Both the position numbers and the translations under genes were made by a program. From Bacillota bacterium (lineage in GTDB: Bacteria > Bacillota_I > Bacilli_A > Erysipelotrichales > Erysipelotrichaceae), in contig JAHFCO010000002.1 of assembly GCA_023249475.1 (NCBI GenBank), positions 1 through 64,000 of the forward strand: 64,000 bases of DNA, given 5' to 3'. Within the stretch, counting starts at the first letter, position 1. Each line of letters begins with the position of its first letter. The notes under the pieces are model-generated. The model made no database searches and was not told where the DNA came from. It saw nothing but the letters and a program-made list of their open reading frames with translations. Shown piece by piece: positions 34,093-48,111 of the stretch.

Positions 34093-34770
34093 ATGAATGA
34101 AGTACTAGAGAACCTTCGGGTTAAGAACCCCCACATCCAAATCCATTCCGTACACGATCCTGAGTTTAGTCGATTTGGGGAAGTGTTGGACGTCAGTGAA
34201 TTTGGTGATTTGATCAGATATTTAGAGTTACACACAACGGTGCCTCGTGTGGGCAATGAGTATGTACCGCATCGGCCAGAATTGGGGGATATCATTTCCG
34301 GCATCTCCGTCATACACAACACCTTCGGGATGGTGCCGTTGGAATACGGCTACGTCAACGGGAACAACTCCAAACTCAATGCCCTTGAGTTCCACAAAAG
34401 TTCCGAAATCAATGTGTGTGTCACACCGCTTGTGTTACTGCTTGCGCATATAGAGGACATTGATGATTCGACAGTTCACTCCTCTAAAGTGACCGCGTTC
34501 TATATTCCCAAGAATACAGCAATCGAAGTGTATTCAACGACGTTGCACTTCTCTCCTTGTAAAGTAACCGATTCAGGGTTCAAATGCGCGGTCATTCTCC
34601 CTTATGGTACCAACATGGAATTTGTCAGTGCCAAAGGTAATCAAGGGAAATATAGTAAGTTTCTATTTAAGACAAACAAATGGCTGCTAAATCACCCGGA
34701 AAACACTCGAATGGTTGAACTCAATGCAATCAGCGCGATACATGGTGAAAACATTGAGATCTACTATTAA
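34093..34770 (+). CDS. DUF4867 family protein, first gene of the sulfoquinovose operon
   Basis: A 225-residue cytoplasmic protein. The middle part (FGMVPLEYGYVNGNNSKLNA, EFHKSSEINVCVTPLVLLL, FYIPKNTAIEVYSTTLHFSP, VILPYGTNMEFV) matches what I know of DUF4867, a cupin-like family of unknown function found near sugar genes in Firmicutes. Conserved His, Glu and a second His (EFHKSSE, TLHFSP) could bind a metal. Sulfoglycolysis clusters often include a mutarotase for sulfoquinovose, and none is otherwise present here, so a mutarotase or sugar-handling role is possible but speculative. The ATG at 34093 is an unusually long 15 bases from AAAGGA because an operator palindrome intervenes. Ten bases separate it from the next gene. 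Confidence 0.75.
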   Translation: MNEVLENLRVKNPHIQIHSVHDPEFSRFGEVLDVSEFGDLIRYLELHTTVPRVGNEYVPHRPELGDIISGISVIHNTFGMVPLEYGYVNGNNSKLNALEFHKSSEINVCVTPLVLLLAHIEDIDDSTVHSSKVTAFYIPKNTAIEVYSTTLHFSPCKVTDSGFKCAVILPYGTNMEFVSAKGNQGKYSKFLFKTNKWLLNHPENTRMVELNAISAIHGENIEIYY

Positions 34771-34780
34771 CGGAGGAAAT

Positions 34781-36802
34781 ATGTTAACACTTGAAAAGAA
34801 TAAAGATCGGTTGAGAGTGATGTTCAAAGATGAGTGCATCCTTGAACATTCAAGTGATCAACCGTTCGTTTTTGTTGGGCGAGGAAATGAAACCATTGAA
34901 AGCTATCGTGGCAACTATCAAATCGAAGACCGATTAGAGAGTCGGATTCCACTGACTGAAACACAGGTCATTGAAAACAGTTGCGTATTCTCAAGTCATG
35001 GCGTGTCTGTGACCGTTGAATTTCTCATTGTGAGTCAACGATTGACCATGAAATTCTCATGCAACAAAACCGACGTCAATCGCTTCTGGATTCGAATGAA
35101 AGCAGATGCAGGTGAAAAAGTATACGGGTGTGGAGAACAAGCCTCCTACTTCAACTTAAGAAACAGAAAATACCCGCTCTGGACCTCTGAGCCCGGCGTC
35201 GGGCGCGATAAATCATCATTGACTACATTCTATGCGGATAAAGTGGATAAGGCCGGTGGGGACTACTACACGACCTATTATCCGGAACCAACCTTCGTAT
35301 CCACCCGGAAATACTGGTTGCATGTGGAATCGACAGCCTATGCTGAGTTTGATTTTCGATCACCGAATTTTCATGAGCTGATGTTTTGGGAAGTTCCCTG
35401 TGAATTGACACTGAATTTTAGTGATAGTTACCTTGAGCTCTTGACTGACCTGACCGAGTTTACGGGACGACCGCCGATGCTGCCTGACTTCTTGCACGAT
35501 GGGATTATCCTGGGTGTTCAGGGCGGCATGGAAACCGTACGCAAATACAAAGACCTTGCGCTTGAAAATGGCATTAAAGTCAACGGCCTTTGGGTGCAAG
35601 ACTGGGTCGGACACCGCTTTACCACGTTTGGAAAGCGGTTGTACTGGAACTGGGTGCTCAATGAGAAACTATACCCCAATTTAAAGGACGAGATCGCTAA
35701 GCTCGATAAGGAAAACATCGCCTTTCTGACCTATATCTGCCCGTTTTTACTGGAAAACGAAACGCTGTTCAATGAGGCTAAATCGTTGGGATATCTTGCC
35801 CTTAATATTGAGGGGAATCCCTATCTCGAAGATTTTGGTGAATTCTATTGCGGTATTGTCGATCTGACAAATCCACAGGGATTCGAGTGGTATAAAAATG
35901 TGATTAAAAAGAATATTCTGTCCTTGGGGATCAAAGGTTGGATGGCGGACTTTGGGGAATATTTACCCATCGACTGTGTCTTGCATAACGGTGTCAGTGC
36001 GAAGATCATGCACAACGCCTGGCCGGTATTGTGGGCGAAGTGTAATTACGAAGCCGTTAAGGAAACCGGGAATTTGGGGAAAGTCTTCTACTTTATGCGA
36101 GCCGGTGGCTTTGGTTCGCAGAAGTACTGCACATCGATGTGGGCGGGAGATCAAAGCGTCAATTGGGAAACCCACGACGGCATTGCCTCCGTCATTCCAT
36201 CCGCACTATCCACCGGCATCATCGGAAACCCCTATACACATAGCGATATCGGCGGATATACCAGTTTGCACGGGAACATCCGAACCAAAGAGTTGTTCGA
36301 CCGCTGGTGTGAAATGAACATATTCTCCTCTTACATGAGAAGCCATGAAGGAAATCGCCCGAGTCAGAACTTCCAATTCTACAATGATGTGGATACCATG
36401 AAACACATGGCTCGATGCTCGAATATCAAAGTCGACCTGAAACCGTATTTTTTAAGTTTGGTTGAAGAGGCGACACGACATGGCTATCCGATGCAACGAC
36501 CATTGTTCTTGCATTATCCAGAAGACGAAAAAGTGTTTGATCTACAGTACGAATACCTTTTCGGACAGGATTTATTTGTCAAACCGATCGTCAGAGAGTC
36601 TCAGCTTTCTCAGACATGTTATCTACCATCCGATGCCTGGGTTCACTTATGGACAGGAGTAGAATTTGATGGTGGAGAGATCACGGTTGATGCGCCCATC
36701 GGATATCCGCCGGTGTTTTACCGAAAACGATCACCCTTCCGGACTTTATTTGAAGATATATATAAGAAGTATGGGAAAGGGGATAATCGATGGCAAAAGT
36801 GA
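34781..36802 (+). CDS. GH31 sulfoquinovosidase
   Basis: A 673-residue family 31 glycosidase, closely similar to E. coli YihQ, which frees sulfoquinovose (SQ) from glycosides such as sulfoquinovosyl glycerol. The nucleophile is D390 (GWMADFGEY) and the acid/base D457 (WAGDQ). The sulfonate-recognition residues known in YihQ (Q288, R301, W304, Y508) correspond at identical spacing to Q273 (VQDW), R286 and W289 (GKRLYWNW) and Y493 (SDIGGY). No signal peptide is seen, so it acts on imported glycosides. The ATG at 34781 follows GGAGG by 4-5 bases; an in-frame extension upstream overlaps the DUF4867 gene and is rejected. It overlaps the next gene by 13 bases. Confidence 0.93.
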   Translation: MLTLEKNKDRLRVMFKDECILEHSSDQPFVFVGRGNETIESYRGNYQIEDRLESRIPLTETQVIENSCVFSSHGVSVTVEFLIVSQRLTMKFSCNKTDVNRFWIRMKADAGEKVYGCGEQASYFNLRNRKYPLWTSEPGVGRDKSSLTTFYADKVDKAGGDYYTTYYPEPTFVSTRKYWLHVESTAYAEFDFRSPNFHELMFWEVPCELTLNFSDSYLELLTDLTEFTGRPPMLPDFLHDGIILGVQGGMETVRKYKDLALENGIKVNGLWVQDWVGHRFTTFGKRLYWNWVLNEKLYPNLKDEIAKLDKENIAFLTYICPFLLENETLFNEAKSLGYLALNIEGNPYLEDFGEFYCGIVDLTNPQGFEWYKNVIKKNILSLGIKGWMADFGEYLPIDCVLHNGVSAKIMHNAWPVLWAKCNYEAVKETGNLGKVFYFMRAGGFGSQKYCTSMWAGDQSVNWETHDGIASVIPSALSTGIIGNPYTHSDIGGYTSLHGNIRTKELFDRWCEMNIFSSYMRSHEGNRPSQNFQFYNDVDTMKHMARCSNIKVDLKPYFLSLVEEATRHGYPMQRPLFLHYPEDEKVFDLQYEYLFGQDLFVKPIVRESQLSQTCYLPSDAWVHLWTGVEFDGGEITVDAPIGYPPVFYRKRSPFRTLFEDIYKKYGKGDNRWQK

Positions 36803-37692
36803 AGAAGAAATTGCGTGGAGTGGAATTTAAACAAAAAATCGTTCCCTATATGTTCCTCGCGCCCAATTTGATCATATTTTCGATTTTCATCATTGTGCCG
36901 GCGCTCATCGGACTGTATTACTCATTCACAGACGTTACCCTGTTTACCTTCGACGGCTTCGATTTCATCGGATTGGAAAATTACATCAAACTGATCGACA
37001 ACGAGTACTTTGTCAAAGCCTTCGTGAATACGATAAAGCTTGTCATCGTCGTGGTTCCGATCATGTACGTGGCTTCCTTGACAATGGCCGTACTCATCGT
37101 GCAGCCGCTCAAAGCCAAAGGACTGTTTCGCGCCGTCTATTATTGGCCTGTCATGATATCCGCCATCGTCATCGGTATTATGTGGAATTGGATCTTGGCC
37201 GGGAACTTCAGTATTTTCAATGCAATCGCAAAGTCTCTTGGCATTCAGACGCTAAAGACACTCACAGACCCGACGTTTGCCTGGTGGTCCGTCGTCTTCG
37301 CACTCGTATGGTCAAGAGCGGGTTACTACATGATTATCTTTATGGCCGCCCTGCTGAGCATTCCAGTGCCTCTCTACGAAGCCGCCGATATCGACGGAGC
37401 TAGCAAGTTACAAAAATTCATGTACATCACCTATCCGTCCATTCGGCCGGCACGTCTGATGGTATTTATCTTGACGACCATGGAAATCTTCAAAGTATAT
37501 CCATTGGTCGTAACCTTGACCGGAGGCGGGCCGCACCGTGCTACCTATTTCACCGTTCAATACGTTTATGAAGTGGCATTTAAAGAATATCAAGTCGGAT
37601 CTGCCAGTGCGATGTCCATGGTCATGTTAATGATCGTCACCATCTTCACGGCAGTAAACTTCTTTTTGTCGAAAAGAGGTGAGAACGTATGA
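36790..37692 (+). CDS. ABC sugar importer permease (MsmF/UgpA-like), probable SQ or SQ-glycoside uptake
   Basis: A 300-residue binding-protein-dependent permease with about six membrane helices (first FLAPNLIIFSIFIIVPALIG). The EAA loop that contacts the ATPase is YEAADIDGASKLQKFMYITYPSI near 200. Together with the following permease and lipoprotein it forms a CUT1-type importer. It sits between the sulfoquinovosidase and the SQ isomerase, so SQ or its glycosides are the likely cargo. No ATPase gene accompanies it; the MsmX-like ATPase at 58.8 kb is the obvious partner. AAAGGGG precedes the ATG. Confidence 0.88.
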   Translation: MAKVKKKLRGVEFKQKIVPYMFLAPNLIIFSIFIIVPALIGLYYSFTDVTLFTFDGFDFIGLENYIKLIDNEYFVKAFVNTIKLVIVVVPIMYVASLTMAVLIVQPLKAKGLFRAVYYWPVMISAIVIGIMWNWILAGNFSIFNAIAKSLGIQTLKTLTDPTFAWWSVVFALVWSRAGYYMIIFMAALLSIPVPLYEAADIDGASKLQKFMYITYPSIRPARLMVFILTTMEIFKVYPLVVTLTGGGPHRATYFTVQYVYEVAFKEYQVGSASAMSMVMLMIVTIFTAVNFFLSKRGENV

Positions 37693-38504
37693 AAAAGGCC
37701 AGCCTCTCAACCTATATCCTTTCGATCGTGGTTTTTCTAATCTTCATACTCCCGGTCCTCTACATCATCTTCTCCGCCTTTAAACCATCATCCGAGCTGT
37801 TCTCCGCCAATCCGACGTTTATTCCCAAAGATTGGACTCTGGACAACTTCACCATCGCACTAAGCAAAGGCAACTTCTCGCTATATATCTTCAATACCTT
37901 CTTAGTGGCGATATCCAGCACGATCATCGCGGTCATCATTAACACCATGGCCGGATACGCATTATCCAAATTCCGCTTCAAAGGCGAGAATGTCATCATG
38001 TTATTGATACTGTCGACCATCATGTTGCCACTTGAAGTCATCATGGTCCCTATCTTCTCGGTTTTGCGGTTTTTCGGGCTGTACAACTCTTTATTGGCCT
38101 TGATCATACCCCCGGCCGCAACACCGACCGGTATATTCTTGATGAGACAATACTTATTGACCATTCCGGACGAAGTCATTCAAGCTGCCCGCATCGACGG
38201 TGCATCGGAATGGCGGATCTTCTGGAACATCATCTTACCCAACGCCAAACCAGCCATCGCCACCCTCGCCATCTTCTCATTTATGTGGCGTTGGAACGAC
38301 TACGTCTGGCCATTGATCGCAATCAACTCGCCAAAAAAATATACCCTTCAATTGGCGATCGCAAATTTCTCGGGTGAATTCGGGATCGACTACAACTCCG
38401 TCATCGCGATGAGTGCATTAGCCATGATTCCGATGCTCATCGTCTTCTTGATCTTCCAGCGTCAATTCGTTCAAGGAACGGTTGATAGCGGGATGAAGGG
38501 TTAA
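37689..38504 (+). CDS. ABC sugar importer permease (MsmG/UgpE-like), probable SQ or SQ-glycoside uptake
   Basis: A 271-residue permease, partner of the preceding one and overlapping it by four bases (ATGA). Six helices; the EAA loop is IQAARIDGASEWRIFWNIIL near 162-181. The N-terminal helix and PSSELFSANPTFIP are typical of MalG/MsmG-type subunits. Confidence 0.88.
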   Translation: MKKASLSTYILSIVVFLIFILPVLYIIFSAFKPSSELFSANPTFIPKDWTLDNFTIALSKGNFSLYIFNTFLVAISSTIIAVIINTMAGYALSKFRFKGENVIMLLILSTIMLPLEVIMVPIFSVLRFFGLYNSLLALIIPPAATPTGIFLMRQYLLTIPDEVIQAARIDGASEWRIFWNIILPNAKPAIATLAIFSFMWRWNDYVWPLIAINSPKKYTLQLAIANFSGEFGIDYNSVIAMSALAMIPMLIVFLIFQRQFVQGTVDSGMKG

Positions 38505-38552
38505 CAACACAGGTATTAATTAACATTAATATAAAAAGAAAGGGAGGATTTT

Positions 38553-39761
38553 ATGAAAAGAATACTTAGTCTACTCTTAGTCTTGTTCGTTATCTCCGGC
38601 TTTAGTGCTTGCGCTAAGCAAGAACCTAAAGAACTGCAAATGCTGTGGTGGAGCGACGGCACCGAAGGTGCGGTCATGCAAACATTGCTTACGGAATACG
38701 AAACGAAAACAGGCGTAAAAATTGAATTAGTCGTCATTCCTTACGCTGATTATGAAGCACGTTTGGCAACCATGATCAGTGGAGGAGAAGCTCCTGCACT
38801 CGCACGCGTCACAGAAGGACATCTGAATAACTTCAAAGGAAAAATCCAGAGTTTAAAAGGTGTCTATGACAGCACGGGATTCACCAACTTATTCTATAAT
38901 GATGCAAACGAAGTCATTTCACTGCCCATGGACATTACGGCCAACGGACTATTCATCAATGTCGATTTGATGGAAAAATACGGGGTGGACTATCCGAAAC
39001 CGGGCGAAGCCGTCTGGACATGGGACCAATTCGAAACCGAAGTAAATAAACTTCGTGCCGGTGTCGGTACCGATGTTAACTTCCCGGGCGTCTTTGATCC
39101 TCAAGCACACCGTTTTTTCCCGATGGTTTATCAACATGGAACAAAAATCTGGAAAACACCGTACACTGAAAGTAATTTGACTGGAACCGCAGCTGTCGAT
39201 GCATTGACGAAACTCGTCGGTTTCTATGAAAGTGGATTAATTGACGATGCCGTTTATGCCGGCACAACCGCCGCCTCTCTGTTTAGAACGGGAGCATACG
39301 GCTTCCATATGTCAGGCAACTGGAATGTCAGCAGCTATCAAGATTTGACATTTGACTGGACGGTCGTCCCGATGCCGAAAGAAACAAACCGCGCTACCAT
39401 TCTTGGTGGTAAGTCCATCGCAGCGTTTATGGACTCCAACGCCCCGAAAGAAGCCAAGAAATTCATTGCTTGGTTAGCTAAAGGCGAAAACCACGACAGA
39501 TATACCGGAGGAGTTCCTTACTTGACACCGCGTTTAGGCGCAGAAGTCGACTATGGAAACTTCAAAGATGAATATGCCGTATTCCTTGATGAAATCGCCG
39601 CCACCGATGCATCCTATGTTCAAGACTGGTTAACCCAAGTCATGGTTCCGGGAATGTATCCGATGATCAACGAAGCCATCCGTAAAGCTGTCGCTAAAGA
39701 AGCAACGCCGTTGGAAGCATTACAAGAACTAGAAACCAAACTCAAAGACGCCAAGAAATAA
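38553..39761 (+). CDS. solute-binding lipoprotein of the SQ importer
   Basis: A 402-residue extracellular binding lipoprotein. The signal MKRILSLLLVLFVISGF ends in the lipobox FSAC (Cys20). The family 1 sugar-binding fold is visible (LQMLWWSDGTEGAVMQTLL, YADYEARLATMISGGEAP, GKSIAAFMDSNAPKEAKKF). Specificity cannot be read from motifs I know; context points to SQ or sulfoquinovosyl glycerol. AGGGAGG lies 8 bases before the ATG, in a 48-base AT-rich gap after the permease. A stable hairpin follows the stop, probably to raise its mRNA level relative to the permeases. Confidence 0.85.
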   Translation: MKRILSLLLVLFVISGFSACAKQEPKELQMLWWSDGTEGAVMQTLLTEYETKTGVKIELVVIPYADYEARLATMISGGEAPALARVTEGHLNNFKGKIQSLKGVYDSTGFTNLFYNDANEVISLPMDITANGLFINVDLMEKYGVDYPKPGEAVWTWDQFETEVNKLRAGVGTDVNFPGVFDPQAHRFFPMVYQHGTKIWKTPYTESNLTGTAAVDALTKLVGFYESGLIDDAVYAGTTAASLFRTGAYGFHMSGNWNVSSYQDLTFDWTVVPMPKETNRATILGGKSIAAFMDSNAPKEAKKFIAWLAKGENHDRYTGGVPYLTPRLGAEVDYGNFKDEYAVFLDEIAATDASYVQDWLTQVMVPGMYPMINEAIRKAVAKEATPLEALQELETKLKDAKK

Positions 39762-39821: not shown

Positions 39822-41195
39822 ATGAAACCGTTTGAATGTCTATATGTACCGTTTGGTGTTCCGACATTTCACTTAGAATCCGCGCAAAAAGCATATGAGG
39901 ATTCAATCAGTTTGCTCAAGAGCGTTGACGAAACGATTACCGTCAGCAATGAAATGTTATTGTCCATTGAAACGCTACTTAAATATATCGATGGGAAAAA
40001 TCCCGATTTGGTGATCTTACAGAATGTAACCTTTGCCAACTCTGCTTATGCGACAGAAGTTTTGAAACGTATATCTGCACCCGTCTTGTTGTGGACGTTA
40101 CGTGAACCTGTCATTGATGGCGGAAGACTCAGACTTAACTCATTAACCGGAGCGTTCTCGGCAGGGTATGCCTACAAAGCGATGAGAAAAGATAAAATTT
40201 TCTACATTTATGGCTCACCAAGCGATGATAGCGTTCAAAACAGACTGAAAAAGATCATTCATGCTGCGAAGTTGAAACACGAAATGAAAAACGCTAATCT
40301 TCTGATGGTTGGACACACCCCGCAGGGATTCGGCTTTGGCCGTGCTTTGGATCTCGAAATGGCCTCGACCTTCGGCGTCAATCTTCTCGCCATTGAATCA
40401 CGAGAACTGACCAAGATTGCCCAGGAAATGAAGATCGAAGATGCAAAAAATGAAGAAAATGAAATTGGTCGGCGAATGGTCGGACTAGAAAATACCGCAA
40501 CCAAAAACCGTGTCGACTTTGTCAAACTATACAAAGCATATCAAGACTATATCGATAAAAATCAAATCAAAGCCATAGCTTCGCGCTGCTGGCCGGACTT
40601 CTTTACGGATTACGGAACCCCGGTATGCAGTGTGCTCGCCATGCTCAACGATCAAAACGTTGCGGCTGCCTGTGAAGCCGACGCTTATGGCGCATTGAGT
40701 ATGTATATCGGACAACAACTCTCAAAATCGCCAACCTATCTGGGTGATCCCGTCTCGATCGATGAAAAAGAAAACACCATTACGTTCTGGCATTGTGGAA
40801 CCGCTGCCTGCGGTTTGGCTAGAAAAGATACCGGTGCAGCCGTAGGTGTTCATCCCAATCGCAAAATCGGACCGACCATGGAGTTTGGGCTAAAGGAATG
40901 TAAAGAAGCCACGATTTTCCGAATCGGCCGTAAACCGGATGGGACCTTCAGATTTTTAATCCTCGATGGAAGAGTATTGGACAAGCCCCAACAATTCTTA
41001 GGAACCAGTGTCGTCGTCGAAGTGGAACCGAAAGTGAATCCGCTGATCACGAACATGGTGCAAGATGGATGGGAACCTCACTTTGTCGTTGTCTATGGGG
41101 ATATCAAGGAAGAACTGGAGATATTGGCTCAATTATTCGCATGTGAAGTAGTAAAATACGAAGGAGAAGAAAGATGGAAAAAAGAGCGTATCTAG
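39822..41195 (+). CDS. L-fucose/L-arabinose isomerase-like protein, predicted sulfoquinovose isomerase
   Basis: A 457-residue protein of the FucI/AraA isomerase superfamily: an N-terminal Rossmann-like part (NPDLVILQNVTFANSAYATE), then VGHTPQGFGFGRALDLEMAS, with C-terminal sugar isomerase features (CEADAYGALSMYIGQQL, FWHCGTAACGLA, MEFGLKECKEATIFRIG). Metal-ligand-type Glu and His are present (CEAD, FWHCG). In the sulfo-transaldolase pathway of Bacillus an isomerase of this superfamily converts SQ to 6-deoxy-6-sulfofructose; here it would feed the transketolase. It overlaps the next gene by 22 bases. L-sugar isomerase activity is the alternative, but no pentose or fucose genes are nearby. Confidence 0.8.
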   Translation: MKPFECLYVPFGVPTFHLESAQKAYEDSISLLKSVDETITVSNEMLLSIETLLKYIDGKNPDLVILQNVTFANSAYATEVLKRISAPVLLWTLREPVIDGGRLRLNSLTGAFSAGYAYKAMRKDKIFYIYGSPSDDSVQNRLKKIIHAAKLKHEMKNANLLMVGHTPQGFGFGRALDLEMASTFGVNLLAIESRELTKIAQEMKIEDAKNEENEIGRRMVGLENTATKNRVDFVKLYKAYQDYIDKNQIKAIASRCWPDFFTDYGTPVCSVLAMLNDQNVAAACEADAYGALSMYIGQQLSKSPTYLGDPVSIDEKENTITFWHCGTAACGLARKDTGAAVGVHPNRKIGPTMEFGLKECKEATIFRIGRKPDGTFRFLILDGRVLDKPQQFLGTSVVVEVEPKVNPLITNMVQDGWEPHFVVVYGDIKEELEILAQLFACEVVKYEGEERWKKERI

Positions 41196-41992
41196 AAGAA
41201 AAGGCGAAGGAAATCCGCCAAGAGACCTTGCGGTGCATCGGTACATTGGGCGTCGGTCATATCGGCGGAAGCCTGTCGATCGCCGATGTTTTGGCTGTAC
41301 TCTATTTTGAAAAAATGAACATCGACCCAAAGAATCCGGGCTTATTGAGCCGTGATCGTTTTGTTTTATCTAAAGGCCATGGTGGACCGGCTGTATATGC
41401 AACATTGGCCATCAAGGGGTACTTTGACAAGTCACTGCTATTGACACTCAATCAGTCAAACACCAACTTACCGAGTCATACCGATAAAAACAAGACCATC
41501 GGCGTCGATATGACCACCGGATCCTTGGGACAAGGATTCTCCGCTGCGGTAGGCATGGCCACTGCGGCTCAGTTGGATGGATCCCAATTAACGGTTTACG
41601 CAATCATCGGTGATGGCGAAAGCCAAGAAGGACAGATTTGGGAATCCGCCATGTTCGCCGGAAGCCGCGGACTGGACACATTGATCGCCTTCACCGACTA
41701 CAACAAATTACAAATCGACGGTGCCGTCAGCGATATCAACGATGTCGCCCCGCTCGACAAGAAATGGGAAGCATTCAACTGGCACGTACAAGTCATTGAC
41801 GGGCATGATGTGTTGGCCATTTCAGAAGCGATCGATCATGCTAAAGAAGTCAAAGGGAAACCTTCGATGATCATACTGAACACCATAAAAGGAAAAGGCG
41901 CTTTCTTCTGTGAAGGCCAAGCCGGCTCACACAATATGCCTGTAACCATGGAACAAGCGAACGAAGCGATTGCGAGGTTGGAAACAAAATGA
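41174..41992 (+). CDS. sqwG: transketolase, N-terminal (TPP-binding) subunit, predicted sulfoglycolytic
   Basis: A 272-residue split transketolase subunit. The TPP motif is GDGESQEGQIWESAMFAG with YNKLQIDG closing it; the conserved start LGVGHIGGSLSIADVLAVLYF and FVLSKGHGGPA are seen. With the next subunit it would move a two-carbon unit from 6-deoxy-6-sulfofructose to glyceraldehyde-3-P, giving xylulose-5-P and 4-deoxy-4-sulfoerythrose, and, after isomerisation, a second two-carbon unit leaving sulfoacetaldehyde. Split transketolases also serve ordinary pentose metabolism; the context decides here. The symbol follows the sulfo-TK nomenclature as I recall it. Confidence 0.85.
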   Translation: MEKRAYLEEKAKEIRQETLRCIGTLGVGHIGGSLSIADVLAVLYFEKMNIDPKNPGLLSRDRFVLSKGHGGPAVYATLAIKGYFDKSLLLTLNQSNTNLPSHTDKNKTIGVDMTTGSLGQGFSAAVGMATAAQLDGSQLTVYAIIGDGESQEGQIWESAMFAGSRGLDTLIAFTDYNKLQIDGAVSDINDVAPLDKKWEAFNWHVQVIDGHDVLAISEAIDHAKEVKGKPSMIILNTIKGKGAFFCEGQAGSHNMPVTMEQANEAIARLETK

Positions 41993-42936
41993 AATTACAC
42001 GATCGTCAATTAAGAGACATTTACGTAGATTTACTGATTGAAGCCGCAAAGAAGCATCCGAATCTGGTCATCGTTGAAGCTGACTTGATGAAAGCGGCGA
42101 AAACCACCGGTTTTGCGGAAGTGTTCCCTGAAAGAACCATCAATGTCGGTGTTGCCGAAGCCAATATGATCGGCGTCGCCGCCGGGTTAAGCAACATGGG
42201 AAAACTACCCTTCACGCACACCTTCACACCGTTTGCGACACGCCGCTGTTTTGACCAAGTCATGTTATCGGTCGCCTATGCCCAACTCAATGTCAAGATG
42301 GTGGGATCGGATCCGGGAATCATGGCTACATTAAATGGTGGCACGCACATGTCGTTGGAAGACGTCGGGATCATGAGAACCATTCCGACCATGACCATCT
42401 TTGAACCGGTCGATGGCGTACAGCTCGCCGGCATGTTTGATCAGATCATCGACCACTACGGTCCGGTATATATCCGACTTCTTCGTCAGGAATTTCCGTC
42501 AGTCTTCGCAGATGGAACACAATTCACCTTAGGCAAAGCGATCAAACTTGAAGAAGGAACCGACGTCAGCATCTTTGCGACGGGGATCATGGTGGTGGAA
42601 GCACTGGAAGCACGCAAGATCTTGGCCGAAGAAGGCATATCCGCGAGCGTCGTCAATATTCACACCGTGAAACCGATCGATCGAGAAGCGATTATTTCCG
42701 AGGCGAAGAAGACCCGGGCAATCGTCACCGCCGAAAACCATAACATCATCAATGGGTTGGGCAGTGCGGTCGCTGAAGTTTTGGTTGAAGAATATCCGGT
42801 CGTTATGGAACGCGTCGGAACCAAAGATCATTTCGGCGAAGTCGGTAAGAAAGACTTCTTGATGGAGAAATTCGGGCTCAAAGCACATAACATCGTCGAC
42901 GCCGTGCATCGTGTACTAGAAAGAAAAGGGAAGTAA
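41989..42936 (+). CDS. sqwH: transketolase, C-terminal (pyrimidine-binding) subunit, predicted sulfoglycolytic
   Basis: A 315-residue partner of the preceding subunit, overlapping it by four bases (ATGA). The catalytic Glu that activates TPP lies in NVGVAEANMIGVAAGL near residue 56; FTHTFTPFATRR and the transketolase C domain (VSIFATGIMVVEAL) follow. It completes a heterotetrameric transketolase. Confidence 0.85.
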   Translation: MKLHDRQLRDIYVDLLIEAAKKHPNLVIVEADLMKAAKTTGFAEVFPERTINVGVAEANMIGVAAGLSNMGKLPFTHTFTPFATRRCFDQVMLSVAYAQLNVKMVGSDPGIMATLNGGTHMSLEDVGIMRTIPTMTIFEPVDGVQLAGMFDQIIDHYGPVYIRLLRQEFPSVFADGTQFTLGKAIKLEEGTDVSIFATGIMVVEALEARKILAEEGISASVVNIHTVKPIDREAIISEAKKTRAIVTAENHNIINGLGSAVAEVLVEEYPVVMERVGTKDHFGEVGKKDFLMEKFGLKAHNIVDAVHRVLERKGK

Positions 42937-42937
42937 T

Positions 42938-43420
42938 ATGAAAAAAATCTTTATCGGCTCTGACAAATCCGGGTTTGCATTGAAAGAAGCCATTAAACAA
43001 TATTTACTTGGCGAAGCTTATGAAGTCGAGGACATCGGCACCACCGATGAAGAGAAACCTGCGCCTTTCTTCGAAGTTGCGCTTAAAGGCGCACTGAAAA
43101 TCCAATCCAAAGAATACACAAGAGGTATCTTGATTTGCGGAACCGGCATGGGCATGTCCATCGTCGCCAACAAACATGAAGGTGTCTTCGGGGCAGCCTG
43201 CGAATCCGTATATGCAGCCGAGAAATGCCGTGCCATCAATGACGCCAACATTCTATGTATGGGTGGATGGATCATTGCGCCGATCATGGGTGTCGAAATG
43301 ACCAAGACCTTCTTAAATACCGAATTTACCCAGAATCTTGAAGAATGGAGGGCCAAAAACTTAGTTAAGGCCAAGGAAGCCGTAGCCAAAATTGAAAAAG
43401 AAAGCTTTCATCGTCAGTAA
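42938..43420 (+). CDS. sqwI: RpiB/LacAB-family isomerase, predicted 4-deoxy-4-sulfoerythrose isomerase
   Basis: A 160-residue RpiB-fold aldose-ketose isomerase. The catalytic loop is intact: C67 in GILICGTGMGMSIVANK. Residues that ordinary RpiB enzymes use for ring opening and phosphate or sugar binding differ: His10 of the DH motif is K10 (GSDKSGFALK), the His of the HND motif is I100 (RAINDAN), and the Arg of GSRVVG is W111 (GGWIIA). A four-carbon sulfonated substrate has no hydroxyl with which to form a furanose ring, so loss of the ring-opening His fits the predicted role of converting 4-deoxy-4-sulfoerythrose to its ketose. It starts one base after the transketolase stop. Confidence 0.82.
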   Translation: MKKIFIGSDKSGFALKEAIKQYLLGEAYEVEDIGTTDEEKPAPFFEVALKGALKIQSKEYTRGILICGTGMGMSIVANKHEGVFGAACESVYAAEKCRAINDANILCMGGWIIAPIMGVEMTKTFLNTEFTQNLEEWRAKNLVKAKEAVAKIEKESFHRQ

Positions 43421-43432
43421 GAAGAAATATGT

Positions 43433-44674
43433 ATGATTGAAACAGTATCGCTACTGTCAATTTTAGTCGCAATTATCATTGGCATAGCCACGAGTATTAA
43501 CGTAGGGTTTATTGCACTGGTTTTTGCTTTCTTCCTAGGAACGACGCTAGGTGGATTAAGTCCCAACACGATCATTGGATTTTGGCCGCTAAACCTATTC
43601 TTCACCACGGTAGGAGTCACATTGTTTTTCAGTATCGCGAAAATCAACGGAACCCTTGAAAACCTGTCAACCATGATCATCTATCGTAGCAAGGGCAGTA
43701 AAGTCAAGATCCAGATTATTTTCTTTGTGCTATCATTGGGACTTGCTTCCATCGGACCTGGGAACATTTCTGCAGCGGCCCTGCTTTTACCCATTGGGCT
43801 AGCCATCGCCTATCAATCCAATATGTCCTTACTGTTGATGAGCGTCCTGATCATTCAGGGATCCATCGCCGGCGGATTGTCTCCCATTGCCCCCAATGGG
43901 ATCGTCGCCTTGGAACTGGCTCGACTAAACAATGTGGGAGAACTTGGAATCTCAATATACCTGTTAAATATGATCAGCATCATCATCTTCTCAACACTCT
44001 TTTTCCTAGCGATGAAAGGCTATCGGATGAATGGTCAGAAAACGGAAGTCACACCACCTTTACCCTTCACCTATGAACAAAAATTAACATTGCTTAGTAT
44101 TCTGATCTTGATTCTCTGGGTCGTCTTCGGGAAAGTCCACGTCGGTTTCGCTGGATTTACCCTCGCTGTCGGACTCTTCTTTCTCAAAGCCGGCAATCAA
44201 CAACAAGCCGTTCAAAACGTTCCGTGGACAACCATCCTACAAATTTGCGGAGCGGCCGTTTTGATCAGTGTTGTCGGTGAACTCGGCGGCATTCAATTGA
44301 TGACCGATTTTCTAGCAAAAATAACGAATGGCCAGACCGCGGTTTTCATCATATCGATTCTTTCCGGAACCATGGCGACCTTCGCTTCGGCGGTCGGCGT
44401 GGTCATGCCGACGCTGATACCTACGACCGTCGCCTTATCGGAAAGCTTGAACTTTGCGGTGAGCCCGGCAGTCCTGACGATGACCATCGCGGTCGCCTCG
44501 CATATGACCACCATGAGTCCGCTATCCGTCATGGGAGCCTTGGCTTTAGGCAGCTTACCCGCAGGAGTCGATGAGAAGAAGCTTTTCAAAAAAATGTATA
44601 TCGTAGCATTTATCGCCTTAGCCTTCGTGTCCACGTTCTTAGGACTGCTTCACCTGCTAGGCATCATAAAATAA
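43433..44674 (+). CDS. MatC/SLC13-like permease, predicted sulfoacetate exporter
   Basis: A 413-residue membrane protein with about eleven hydrophobic segments. The N-terminus (SLLSILVAIIIGIATSINVG, then LNLFFTTVGVTLFFSIAKI and IGPGNISAAALLLPIG) matches the MatC dicarboxylate carrier N-terminal family. Two GPGN/SPIAPNG-like re-entrant motifs and VGVVMPTLIPTTV in the second half are typical of ion-transporter folds. Placed between the isomerase and the sulfoacetaldehyde dehydrogenase, it most likely exports the end product sulfoacetate, which this operon cannot break down further. Import of an organosulfonate is the alternative. A weak GAAGAAA ribosome site precedes the ATG. Confidence 0.75.
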   Translation: MIETVSLLSILVAIIIGIATSINVGFIALVFAFFLGTTLGGLSPNTIIGFWPLNLFFTTVGVTLFFSIAKINGTLENLSTMIIYRSKGSKVKIQIIFFVLSLGLASIGPGNISAAALLLPIGLAIAYQSNMSLLLMSVLIIQGSIAGGLSPIAPNGIVALELARLNNVGELGISIYLLNMISIIIFSTLFFLAMKGYRMNGQKTEVTPPLPFTYEQKLTLLSILILILWVVFGKVHVGFAGFTLAVGLFFLKAGNQQQAVQNVPWTTILQICGAAVLISVVGELGGIQLMTDFLAKITNGQTAVFIISILSGTMATFASAVGVVMPTLIPTTVALSESLNFAVSPAVLTMTIAVASHMTTMSPLSVMGALALGSLPAGVDEKKLFKKMYIVAFIALAFVSTFLGLLHLLGIIK

Positions 44675-44684
44675 AGGAGAAAAT

Positions 44685-46094
44685 ATGAGTTCGAAAGAGT
44701 ATGTGTCGTCCTACGTAAAGAGGGCGAAAGCTGCGCAGAAACAAATCCAGTTTTACACCCAGGAACAAATCGATGAAGTTTGTGTAGCGATCGGTTGGGA
44801 AGTATACAATGATCAAAACATTGAAATACTGGCTAAACTTGCCGTCGAAGAAACGAAGATGGGAAATGTCCAGGACAAAATCACGAAACACAAAAACAAA
44901 GTGCTCGGTGTTTTAAAAGATGTCCAACATGCCAAGTCCGTGGGTTGCATTGAAGTGGATGAAGTAAAGAAAATCAGAAAATTCGCCAAACCGGTTGGCG
45001 TTGTCGGTGCATTGACTCCGGTAACCAATCCGACGGCGACCCCTGCCAGCAATGGGATCACGATACTAAAAGGCAGAAACGCCGTTATCTTTGCGCCGCA
45101 TCCGAGATCCAAAAAAGCGACGGCCATGGCCGTGCAGTTTATGAGAGACGGACTTCGCAAGGTCAACGCGCCGGAAGATCTCATCCAAGTCATCGATGAA
45201 CCCTCCATCGAAGTCACGGAAGAACTCATGAAACAAGTCGACGTCGTACTTGCGACCGGAGGCGGGGCGATGGTGAAAGCGGCATACTCATCCGGTAAAC
45301 CGGCCTATGGTGTCGGACCCGGCAATTCGGTATCCATCGTCGCCGAAGACGCCAATGTGAAAGACGCTGCCACGAAAATCATGGGCAGTAAAGCATTTGA
45401 TCATGCGACATCGTGTTCAAGTGAGAATTCCATCATCATTCATGAGTCGATTTATGACCAAATGATCGAGCAGTTGATTTCTCTGGGTGCCCACCTTGTT
45501 ACCGAAGACATGCGCGAACAGCTGTCGATGTACATGTGGCCCCTGAACGACAAAGGATATCGCTCGATCAACCCCAAAATCATCGCTCAGTCCGCACAGT
45601 CCATTGCTCAAGGAGCCATGTTGACGGTGAACGATTCTGTGAAAGTCTTGCTCGTTGAAGGGAGAGAAGATATCGAATCCGATTTTTTCTCTCAAGAAAA
45701 ACTGTCCCCCGTGTTGACGATCTTCAAGTATGCAACCTTTGAAGAAGGGTATCGCATTCTCGAAAGACTAACCGATAATTACGGGACAGGACATTCCTGT
45801 GGAATACACACCTTCAACGATGAGTATGTTAAGTATATCGGATCAAGAATCCGTAGTAGCCGGGTCCTTGTCAATCAGGCGCAAGCCGCAGGGAACGGGG
45901 GCGCATTCTTTAACGGCATGCCGTCGACCGTATCCTTGGGATGTGGCAGTTGGGGTGGAAACATCACCTCTGAAAATATCACGTACAAACATTTCATCAA
46001 TACGACCTGGGTTTCCGAATTCTTTCCGCCAGTCCGTCCGAGTGATGAAGAAATATTCGGAGCGTATTTCGCCAGCGGGAAGAAGGATCGCTGA
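44685..46094 (+). CDS. sqwD: CoA-acylating aldehyde dehydrogenase, predicted sulfoacetaldehyde dehydrogenase
   Basis: A 469-residue acylating aldehyde dehydrogenase of the EutE/PduP/AdhE-N/SauS group. The NAD-binding strand is VLATGGGAMVKAAYSSG, the catalytic residue C244 (DHATSCSSEN), and the C-terminus has LGCGSWGGNITSENITYKHF, also found in sulfoacetaldehyde dehydrogenases and AdhE. It would oxidise sulfoacetaldehyde to sulfoacetyl-CoA with NADH formation. Microcompartment shell genes and targeting peptides of EutE/PduP systems are absent. GGAG lies 7 bases before the ATG; the stop overlaps the next start (TGATG). Confidence 0.87.
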   Translation: MSSKEYVSSYVKRAKAAQKQIQFYTQEQIDEVCVAIGWEVYNDQNIEILAKLAVEETKMGNVQDKITKHKNKVLGVLKDVQHAKSVGCIEVDEVKKIRKFAKPVGVVGALTPVTNPTATPASNGITILKGRNAVIFAPHPRSKKATAMAVQFMRDGLRKVNAPEDLIQVIDEPSIEVTEELMKQVDVVLATGGGAMVKAAYSSGKPAYGVGPGNSVSIVAEDANVKDAATKIMGSKAFDHATSCSSENSIIIHESIYDQMIEQLISLGAHLVTEDMREQLSMYMWPLNDKGYRSINPKIIAQSAQSIAQGAMLTVNDSVKVLLVEGREDIESDFFSQEKLSPVLTIFKYATFEEGYRILERLTDNYGTGHSCGIHTFNDEYVKYIGSRIRSSRVLVNQAQAAGNGGAFFNGMPSTVSLGCGSWGGNITSENITYKHFINTTWVSEFFPPVRPSDEEIFGAYFASGKKDR

Positions 46095-47218
46095 TGAAAC
46101 TCTTTGAATATCAAGTAAAGGACTTGTTTAAAAACGCGGGGATCGCTGTTCCGAAAAGCCAATTGATTCATCGTGTCGATCAGGCGGCTGAAGCGTTTGC
46201 TTTAATCGGGTTCCCCTGTGTTATCAAGTCACAGGTGTTGAGTGGCGGCCGTGGCAAAGCCGGATTGATTCAGTTTGTAAAAAACGAGGGGAAAGGGATG
46301 GAAGAAGTCACCCGTCTCTTTGCCCTGCCTCTAAAAATATCATCCCTACTCATCGAAGAAGCCGTGGATATTGCCCATGAAGTCTATGCTTCATTTACGA
46401 TTGATCCACTCAGTGGTTCAGCCCTATCCATCGTCAGCGCTACGGGCGGGGTCGATATTGAAACGTTGGCCATTGAACAACCACACAAGATCCTTCAGAC
46501 AAAAATCGATATGAACCTCGGGTTACAAGCGTATCAAGCCAACCACATCGCTTATGAATGTGGATTTGATCCTGAAATAGCTAAGAAATTCACGCAGTTA
46601 CTGCTTAAACTGTATCGTCTGTTTGTTCAATATGATTGTGAGTTATTGGAAATCAACCCGCTTTTTATCACCAACTCAAACGAGTTGGTTGCCGGGGATG
46701 GGAAGTGTTCGATCGATGACAACTCCATGTTTCGACACGAAGACATTTCCGTGCCGCTGGGGGACATTGAAAACGAAGCGGAGCGCTTGGCGGCGGAAGA
46801 AGGCATACCGTTTATTCAGTTTGATGGCGACATCAGTTTGATGTGCGCAGGCGCCGGACTGACCACGACCGTTTACGACTTGGTTCACTATGAAGGTGGA
46901 ACGATTGCGAATTATCTGGAATTTGGCGGACCTCACTATAAAAAAGCGATGAAAGCCATGGAAATCTGTTTGAAAGTTCCGTCGAAAGTCATCTTGATCG
47001 TGACCTTTGGAACGATCGCCCGTGCCGATGTCATGGCACAAGGCATCGTTGAAGCCATCGGTAAATTAAAACCGGATCGTCCGATCGTGACGTGTATCCG
47101 TGGAACCAATGAAGTTGAAGCTGTCGAAATTCTGCGAAAAGCCGGATTGAATCCGCTTTTTGATACGGAAGAAGCGGTTCGCTTGGCGGTTGCCTTAGCG
47201 AAGGAGACGAAGATATGA
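46094..47218 (+). CDS. sqwL: ADP-forming CoA ligase, beta (SucC-like) subunit, predicted sulfoacetate-CoA ligase
   Basis: A 374-residue SucC-type subunit: the ATP-grasp domain (FEYQVKDLFKNAGIAVP, IKSQVLSGGRGKAGLI, ELLEINPLFI) and the ligase/CoA domain (ANYLEFGGPHY, IVTFGTIARADVMAQGI). With the alpha subunit it would turn sulfoacetyl-CoA, ADP and phosphate into sulfoacetate, CoA and ATP. A housekeeping succinyl-CoA synthetase is less likely, since no TCA genes adjoin and the four preceding steps match. Codon use is more AT-rich than the rest of the window. Which letter (K or L) belongs to which subunit is from memory. Confidence 0.82.
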   Translation: MKLFEYQVKDLFKNAGIAVPKSQLIHRVDQAAEAFALIGFPCVIKSQVLSGGRGKAGLIQFVKNEGKGMEEVTRLFALPLKISSLLIEEAVDIAHEVYASFTIDPLSGSALSIVSATGGVDIETLAIEQPHKILQTKIDMNLGLQAYQANHIAYECGFDPEIAKKFTQLLLKLYRLFVQYDCELLEINPLFITNSNELVAGDGKCSIDDNSMFRHEDISVPLGDIENEAERLAAEEGIPFIQFDGDISLMCAGAGLTTTVYDLVHYEGGTIANYLEFGGPHYKKAMKAMEICLKVPSKVILIVTFGTIARADVMAQGIVEAIGKLKPDRPIVTCIRGTNEVEAVEILRKAGLNPLFDTEEAVRLAVALAKETKI

Positions 47219-48111
47219 GTATTTTCATCGATCGAAGCACACGCGTTTTGGTTCAGGGAATCACCGGCTCAGAGGGTAGCTTTTGGACAAAGCACATGAT
47301 CGATTTGGGGACCCAGGTCATCTGTGGCGTTACTCCCGCAAAAGAGGGTCAAACCATCCATGATATACCGGTTTATCATTCGGTCGAAAGGGCATTAAGA
47401 AATCATGAAGTCGATGCCTCCATGATCTTCGTCCCCCCGAAACTCACGAAAGACGCCGTATTCGAAGCGCTTGCCAACGGAATCAAGAAGATCGTTACGA
47501 TGGCTGACGGCATACCGCTTTTCGATATGGTTGCCATACGCCATGCGGCACTCGAGCATAATGCACTGGTCATCGGCGGAAACACCTCCGGAGTCATATC
47601 GCCGGAAGAAGCGATGATGGGCAGTTTCCCCTACTGGATCCAACGCGTATATAAACGCGGGAATATCGGAGTCATGACACGCAGCGGTTCATTGACCAAC
47701 GAAGTGACCGGGATGATCGTAAAACAAGGATACGGTGTTTCGACGCTTATCGGTGTCGGTGGAGATCCGGTTCCCGCAACCAGATTTGCGGAAATGCTAC
47801 CCTATTACCAGCAGGATGAACAAACCGAAGCCGTGGTCATCATCGGCGAGCTCGGCGGGACGATGGAAGAAGAGGTAGCGGAGGCGATGGAAAAAGGGAT
47901 TTTCACCAAACCCTTGGTCGCATTTCTCGGGGGTAGAACGGCTCCCAAAGGACAGAAGATGGGCCATGCCGGCGCGATCATCACAGGTGGTAAAGGCGCT
48001 GTGGAAGATAAAATCGAAGCGTTGACGAAGGCCGGAGCCTTGGTTGCGGATCGTCCAAGCAATGTCGGGATATTGTTGGAACAGTTAAACGTACCTAAAA
48101 AATTGTCGTAG
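47215..48111 (+). CDS. sqwK: ADP-forming CoA ligase, alpha (SucD-like) subunit, predicted sulfoacetate-CoA ligase
   Basis: A 298-residue SucD-type subunit, overlapping the beta gene by four bases. CoA-binding domain VLVQGITGSEGSFWTKHM near residue 12, ligase domain VGGDPVPATRF and IGELGGTMEEE, and the phosphorylated histidine H251 in KMGHAGAIITGGKGA. It is the last gene of the thirteen-gene operon. Confidence 0.85.
   Translation: MSIFIDRSTRVLVQGITGSEGSFWTKHMIDLGTQVICGVTPAKEGQTIHDIPVYHSVERALRNHEVDASMIFVPPKLTKDAVFEALANGIKKIVTMADGIPLFDMVAIRHAALEHNALVIGGNTSGVISPEEAMMGSFPYWIQRVYKRGNIGVMTRSGSLTNEVTGMIVKQGYGVSTLIGVGGDPVPATRFAEMLPYYQQDEQTEAVVIIGELGGTMEEEVAEAMEKGIFTKPLVAFLGGRTAPKGQKMGHAGAIITGGKGAVEDKIEALTKAGALVADRPSNVGILLEQLNVPKKLS

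Follow-up and report, generated by a model that had tools for sequence, protein, structure and literature searches.

A proposed SqwI sulfotetrose isomerase of the RpiB fold with a replaced ring-opening histidine and a changed phosphate site

The gene sqwI found in the 64,000-nucleotide stretch of DNA analyzed here (the window, from contig JAHFCO010000002.1) probably encodes the SqwI of an oxidative sulfo-transketolase (sulfo-TK) pathway, that is, an aldose-ketose isomerase of the RpiB fold for a sulfotetrose that is always open, in which the ring-opening histidine is replaced and the anion pocket rebuilt; we infer its chemistry, its substrate and its contacts with the sulfonate, whereas its residues, its clade, its gene context and the parallel loss in tetrose-4-phosphate isomerases are directly observed. 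Taken by itself, this SqwI is an ordinary one, and its interest lies in a residue rule for the family. It is placed in a sulfoquinovose operon, between the gene of SqwH and that of a MatC/CitMHS-type carrier, and is encoded together with SqwGH and a sulfoquinovose isomerase (39822-43420 in the window). The cluster is a complete oxidative sulfo-TK pathway, leading from sulfoquinovose to sulfoacetate in the degradation of plant sulfolipid, of an Erysipelotrichaceae-related bacterium, with the following genes.

34093..34770, + strand: DUF4867 protein (SftX-like), from a profile search
34715..36802, + strand: GH31 alpha-glucosidase, YihQ-like sulfoquinovosidase (PRK10426, 929 bits; the true start may be further downstream)
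36790..39761, + strand: ABC sugar importer, two permease-like proteins and a substrate-binding protein (ORFs, profiles)
39822..41195, + strand: SqvD/SftI-like sulfoquinovose isomerase (NF048012, 402 bits, below the cut-off of 700)
41174..41992, + strand: SqwG, N-terminal half of transketolase (profiles)
41989..42936, + strand: SqwH, C-terminal half of transketolase (profiles)
42938..43420, + strand: sqwI, RpiB/LacAB family (PF02502), proposed 4-deoxy-4-sulfoerythrose/sulfoerythrulose isomerase (ORF, profiles, fold)
43433..44674, + strand: MatC/CitMHS-type carrier (profile), likely the sulfoacetate exporter judging by its position
44685..46094, + strand: SqwD-like CoA-acylating sulfoacetaldehyde dehydrogenase (NF047625, 516 bits, cut-off 600)
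46094..48111, + strand: SqwKL-like ADP-forming CoA ligase, beta and alpha subunits (profiles)

In later literature, the oxidative sulfo-TK variant is credited to Chu et al. 2023. According to a 2022 review, SqwI activity had escaped direct measurement because sulfoerythrose isomerizes spontaneously, and its function is a proposed one (PMC9594981); the assignment is repeated in later papers (PMC11659671, PMC12890257, PMC13219744). A literature search that covered reviews and later papers found no active-site analysis of SqwI. Contigs related to the window come from MAGs of Erysipelotrichaceae and Firmicutes (88-99%) and from Acholeplasmataceae (mostly 72-81%).

The ORF spans exactly 42938-43420, and its product of 160 amino acids belongs to the RpiB/LacAB family, with a PF02502 match of 143.2 bits against a cut-off of 24.7. 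The cut-off of the RpiB/LacA/LacB subfamily (TIGR00689) is exceeded and that of PRK05571 narrowly missed, and SqwI stays below those of both the rpiB equivalog (TIGR01120, 111.5 bits against 138.65) and the D-erythrulose-4-phosphate isomerase EryI/DerI (NF051858, 89.7 bits against 240). The AlphaFold model has a pLDDT of 97.3, and its best Foldseek matches are solved RpiB structures, 3he8 (E 9e-18) and 2vvr, the latter being the H99N mutant of the E. coli enzyme. Moreover, the genome encodes two other RpiB, both with H10, H100 and R111, so ribose-5-phosphate isomerization need not fall to SqwI. A blastn search of the genome's own RpiB region against plasmids recovered, among the matches listed, only the neighboring glyA.

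The original prediction described a conserved C67 and three substitutions, H10 to K, the His of the HND motif to I100 and the Arg of GSRVVG to W111, and all of them are read in the ORF as stated, alongside D9, T69, N101-D102, G110 and R138. The alignment with E. coli RpiB is gap-free from I100 to R138 and pairs I100 with H99, W111 with R110 (R113 in Mtb), L134 with R133, E135 with H134 and R138 with R137. Thus, the RpiB-type residues H99/H134, H10, R110 and R133 (E. coli numbers) are all absent, their places being taken by I100, E135, K10, W111 and L134. The changes at E135, L134 and P43 had been missed.

42965..42967, + strand: codon 10, Lys replacing the phosphate-contacting His; K, L, G or V in the clade (alignment)
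43064..43066, + strand: codon 43, Pro replacing the Asp of the RpiB DYP motif (alignment)
43136..43138, + strand: codon 67, catalytic base Cys, kept in 76/76 and followed by Gly68-Thr69 (alignment)
43235..43237, + strand: codon 100, Ile replacing the ring-opening His, E. coli H99 and Mtb H102 (alignment; PMC3755991)
43268..43270, + strand: codon 111, Trp replacing the phosphate-binding Arg of GSRVVG, Mtb R113 (alignment; PMC3755991)
43337..43342, + strand: codons 134-135, Leu-Glu replacing Arg-His, E. coli R133-H134, the phosphate Arg and the second proposed ring-opening His (alignment; PMC4783025)
43349..43351, + strand: codon 138, Arg kept in 76/76 (E. coli R137, anion-binding), with W137 just before it (alignment)

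In the characterized enzymes, furanose opening is the role of E. coli H99 and Mtb H102, and the H99N substitution lowers the kcat 26-fold; Mtb H138 (E. coli H134) is the proposed base for O1H, and H10 and Mtb R113 contact the phosphate (PMC3755991, PMC4783025). E. coli R133 and R137 are assigned as anion ligands because they align with R130/R134 of LacA and R137/R141 of the L. donovani enzyme (PMC3755991, PMC4783025). Replacing the Asp at position 43 by Asn inactivates the L. donovani enzyme, in which this residue is placed outside the active site proper (PMC4783025).

According to these equivalences, SqwI would most likely interconvert 4-deoxy-4-sulfoerythrose and 4-deoxy-4-sulfoerythrulose through a cis-enediolate generated by C67 with the Gly68-Thr69 loop, D9 and N101. 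The histidines H99 and H134 would have given way to I100 and E135 because a C4-substituted tetrose, having no C4 hydroxyl, is always open. From the phosphate pocket only R138 would stay, with H10 turned into a variable residue, R111 into an invariant Trp and R133 into Leu or Val; the sulfonate would be held by R138, with W111 probably near and perhaps W137. The Trp/Arg sulfonate pocket of sulfoquinovosidase would provide an analogy, for which a literature search gave no usable match.

The comparison set was built from 80 relatives with their flanks, obtained from a search of genome contigs, and from background members taken from Bacilli genomes, the full genomes to which 28 of the loci belong and plasmid records. 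After removal of identical domains, 221 sequences were aligned, mostly from Bacilli and Clostridia. In the SqwI class, defined as I/V100 with W111 (n = 76, identity down to about 51%), C67, T69, D9, N101, E135 and R138 are each present in 76/76, L or V134 in 76 and P43 in 72, whereas the H100/C67 RpiB (n = 99) carry H10 in 97, R111 in 92, H135 in 92 (4 gapped) and D or N43 in 94. With the set thinned to 80% identity, only six columns distinguish SqwI from RpiB by different residues that are each fixed to at least 85% (43, 100, 111, 118, 134 and 135), and five of these are active-site positions, corresponding to both proposed ring-opening His (100/135), both phosphate Arg (111/134) and the conserved Asp (43). 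A class of 76 members with uniform E135 and R138 indicates that the substitutions of SqwI are not due to chance. Also, with its catalytic residues invariant across 76 sequences, the enzyme is probably needed even though sulfoerythrose isomerizes spontaneously.

If the histidine is dispensable when the substrate cannot close, isomerases of erythrose-4-phosphate should have lost it too. In this sugar the C4 hydroxyl is esterified, none is free and no furanose can form; a search for a literature source on its open-chain state found none. Five plasmid proteins above the NF051858 cut-off carry S10, S100, R111 and S135. In the whole S100 group (n = 22), position 10 is never His (E, N, S, P or D), S135 is present in 20 and position 138 is Lys or Asn. 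Ten of the 22 have a TPI-like gene, as in EryH-EryI pairs, no more than 2.5 kb away, and another 6 adjoin a DhaK/DhaL-like (dihydroxyacetone-kinase-like) gene, so that 16/22 have one or the other neighbor versus 0/107 H100 proteins and 0/82 I/V100 proteins. For TPI alone the Fisher p is 3e-9, a value calculated on related sequences that is not a phylogenetic test and in which many background loci span only ~3 kb. This control agrees with the earlier proposal that the His loss fits a substrate without a furanose. The proposal that the phosphate site had to change is likewise sustained, given that R111, the phosphate Arg, is kept in 19/22 S100 proteins and is Trp in 65/65 I/V100 proteins within 6 kb of SqwGH. 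These comparisons suggest that the His loss would mark an open-chain tetrose, and W111, L134 and E135 its sulfonate version. In consequence, I100 by itself does not serve as a sulfosugar signature, the His loss being a trait of tetroses and not of sulfonates.

A further member of the S100 pattern may be the C. immitis 'RpiB' 3SDW, whose phosphate-recognition residues include Asp17, Ser109, Ser145 and Lys148 and for which another substrate is suspected; at the residues that its authors list, the fungal protein resembles the S100 group (PMC3212906). Counted from the catalytic Cys76, Ser109 would occupy the position of the ring-opening His. Separately, the gene of a protein annotated as RpiB, with E10, S100, R111 and S135, lies together with those of a DhaK-type kinase and a Zn polyol-type dehydrogenase (L231:5847-9433). 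This protein, beside the dihydroxyacetone-kinase-type gene, is likely an erythrulose-4-phosphate isomerase, although it scores 160.1 bits, above the rpiB equivalog cut-off of 138.65.

How the histidine was lost was approached with a tree built without columns 10, 100 and 111, whose branches near the base are weak. The I/V100 proteins form one clade (support 100/99) with the window SqwI inside, in which the I/V100 and W111 class groups with its I100 sisters, and the S100 proteins form another (93/92). One account of these data is a single His loss in a tetrose-4-phosphate isomerase ancestor, from which SqwI was recruited with a site already fit only for open chains, leaving just the anion pocket to be rebuilt for the sulfonate. 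It is compatible with the function proposed here and differs on why the His is gone. A tree uniting the I100 and S100 groups loses only 1.17 log units (AU p 0.427), and both groups are largely without H10, D43, H100 and H135; against it, the unconstrained tree places the I100 clade beside H100 proteins (L093/L094) and outside S100, with a weak support of 87/73, and the replacement residues of the two groups differ at every position. We consider this account a tentative one, somewhat short of an even chance. Two independent origins of the His loss are not demonstrable in the tree test (AU p 0.427), and either a single loss with later divergence or two separate losses would fit, so that I100 may be inherited rather than adapted.

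Other readings concern the present function. SqwI could be mainly a tetrose-4-phosphate or ribose-5-phosphate isomerase with sulfoerythrose as a side reaction, in line with the retention of R138 and the catalytic loop and with the spontaneous isomerization of sulfoerythrose (PMC9594981); nevertheless, none of the 76 members keeps the phosphate His or the Arg at either of two phosphate-binding positions, the genome has its two H10/H100/R111 RpiB, and sqwI sits in a dedicated sulfoquinovose operon, which makes this reading improbable. Slightly less probable still is that the His loss reflects a relaxed constraint of little catalytic meaning. The modest effects of mutating the ring-opening His, 10- to 26-fold in the T. 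cruzi and E. coli enzymes (PMC3755991, PMC4783025), would be in its favor, but L. donovani H102N is inactive (PMC4783025) and the replacements are uniform, with I/V100, W111 and E135 together in 76/76 SqwI and S135 in 20/22 of the S100 proteins. An SqwI acting on the always-open sulfotetrose is the preferred reading, and a probable one.

The three substitutions had also been put forward as a diagnostic signature, and this idea survives in an amended form. Among the 221 sequences, the combination of I/V100, W111 and E135 is confined to the SqwI clade, and SqwG/H is found within 6 kb in 65/79 I/V100 loci. Position 10, by contrast, is variable (K in 65 of the 76 SqwI, L in 6, G in 4, V in 1), and the 11 proteins without K10 all have SqwGH no further than 6 kb away. 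The occurrence of L, G or V in complete clusters rules out K10 as a general sulfonate ligand; no basic residue compensating for its loss was found in the alignment, except for a weak excess at position 49. In the H100/C67 RpiB, H10 is kept in 97/99 and R111 in 92/99, but W111 alone is not unique, as L094 combines it with H10 and H100. Overall, the original interpretation is partly supported, being right on the His and the phosphate site, wrong on K10 and on the sulfonate specificity of I100, and incomplete on E135, L134 and P43.

The signature is also present outside sulfo-TK clusters. Three rumen Eubacterium MAGs (L070, L080, L083) carry it in full, away from any sulfonate cluster, in genomes without a close SqwH (best 43-44%). 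At another place, these genomes have a cluster containing SqvD and DUF4867 (L233, L234, L235), which in L233 and L235 also includes a YihQ-like protein, a transaldolase and an SLA-reductase-like dehydrogenase, a sulfo-TAL-type set; the L234 contig starts at the DUF4867 end. A SqvD-like isomerase was not found in the genomes of L047 and L056. The triple signature would then point to sulfoquinovose-using genomes and not strictly to sulfo-TK clusters.

Several observations were made along these loci. In two of the Eubacterium MAGs (L083:9950-11021, L080:4055-5200) the SqwI-like gene has as its neighbor, on the other strand, an ordinary RpiB gene, and in L083 the pair sits among housekeeping-like genes, with the SqvD sulfo-TAL-type cluster elsewhere in the genome. 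A single ORF in L233 (7251-8681) joins a transaldolase (TAL_FSA) domain and a 6-phosphogluconate-dehydrogenase-like reductase domain, encoded by separate genes in L235; it may be a fusion of SF transaldolase with sulfolactaldehyde reductase, or result from an error of assembly. The genome of L047 (Agathobaculum massiliense, G068) has SqwI and SqwGH, and neither a SqvD-like isomerase nor another PF02502 protein was found in it. Two Clostridia genomes encode RpiB-family proteins with F10, G100, F111 and E135 (L194 and L211; L230:8081-8650, L229:8985-9608), each beside an ORF resembling a LacI-type regulator, a further divergent subfamily.

The sister I100 subfamily, with F, Y or N111, has neighbors unlike those of SqwI. 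Its I100/F111 proteins occur in a gene set that differs from known sulfoglycolysis (L072:702-12982, L077:2-10468, L079:303-12293), with a split transketolase like SqwGH (48-54%), a transaldolase-like protein, a TauE/SafE exporter, an ABC importer with an NMT1/THI5-type binding protein and a LarA-like NPN isomerase, to which L072 adds a Zn alcohol dehydrogenase and a TIM-family protein. No close SqvD was found in the genomes of L072, L074 and L079. This set may represent a sulfonate or sulfosugar pathway not yet described.

For the RpiB/LacAB family as a whole, a residue rule could be formulated in which positions 100 and 135 report on ring closure (His/His) or an always-open substrate (Ser/Ser for tetrose phosphates, Ile/Glu for a sulfonated tetrose), and position 111 on the anion (Arg for phosphate, Trp for sulfonate); we regard the chances of this rule as evenly balanced. 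These positions separate the ribose-phosphate from the tetrose-phosphate isomerases that automatic annotation has merged, and if the rule is true many 'ribose-5-phosphate isomerase B' entries would be re-annotated as tetrose isomerases, possibly including C. immitis 3SDW/3QD5 and Brucella 5IFZ. The sequence also lends independent support to the SqwI reaction, its loss resembling that in isomerases of another always-open tetrose and being accompanied by a rebuilt anion pocket.

Finally, the closest known system is the SqwI of the sulfo-TK pathway of Clostridium sp. MSTE9 and of the Acholeplasma sp. variant, with which the window shares the gene order beside SqwGH and, for the Acholeplasma variant, the oxidative tail of SqwD and SqwKL, the Acholeplasmataceae relatives being ~72-81% identical; no essential difference separates the known SqwI from that of the window. 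EryI/DerI (NF051858) has in common with SqwI the RpiB fold, an open-chain tetrose substrate and the loss of both proposed ring-opening His and of H10, but its residues are S100, R111, S135 and N138 or K138, whereas those of SqwI are I100, W111, E135 and R138. RpiB/AlsI shares the fold, the catalytic D9, the Cys, the Gly-Thr loop, N101 and R138, while its H10, the D of DYP, H99, R110, R133 and H134 (E. coli numbers) are all replaced in SqwI. The galactose-6-phosphate isomerase LacA/LacB belongs to the same family and also lacks the equivalent of R111; however, LacA keeps the ring-opening His and is without the Cys, LacB is without the His but pairs with LacA, and neither has the I100/W111/E135 combination of SqwI.
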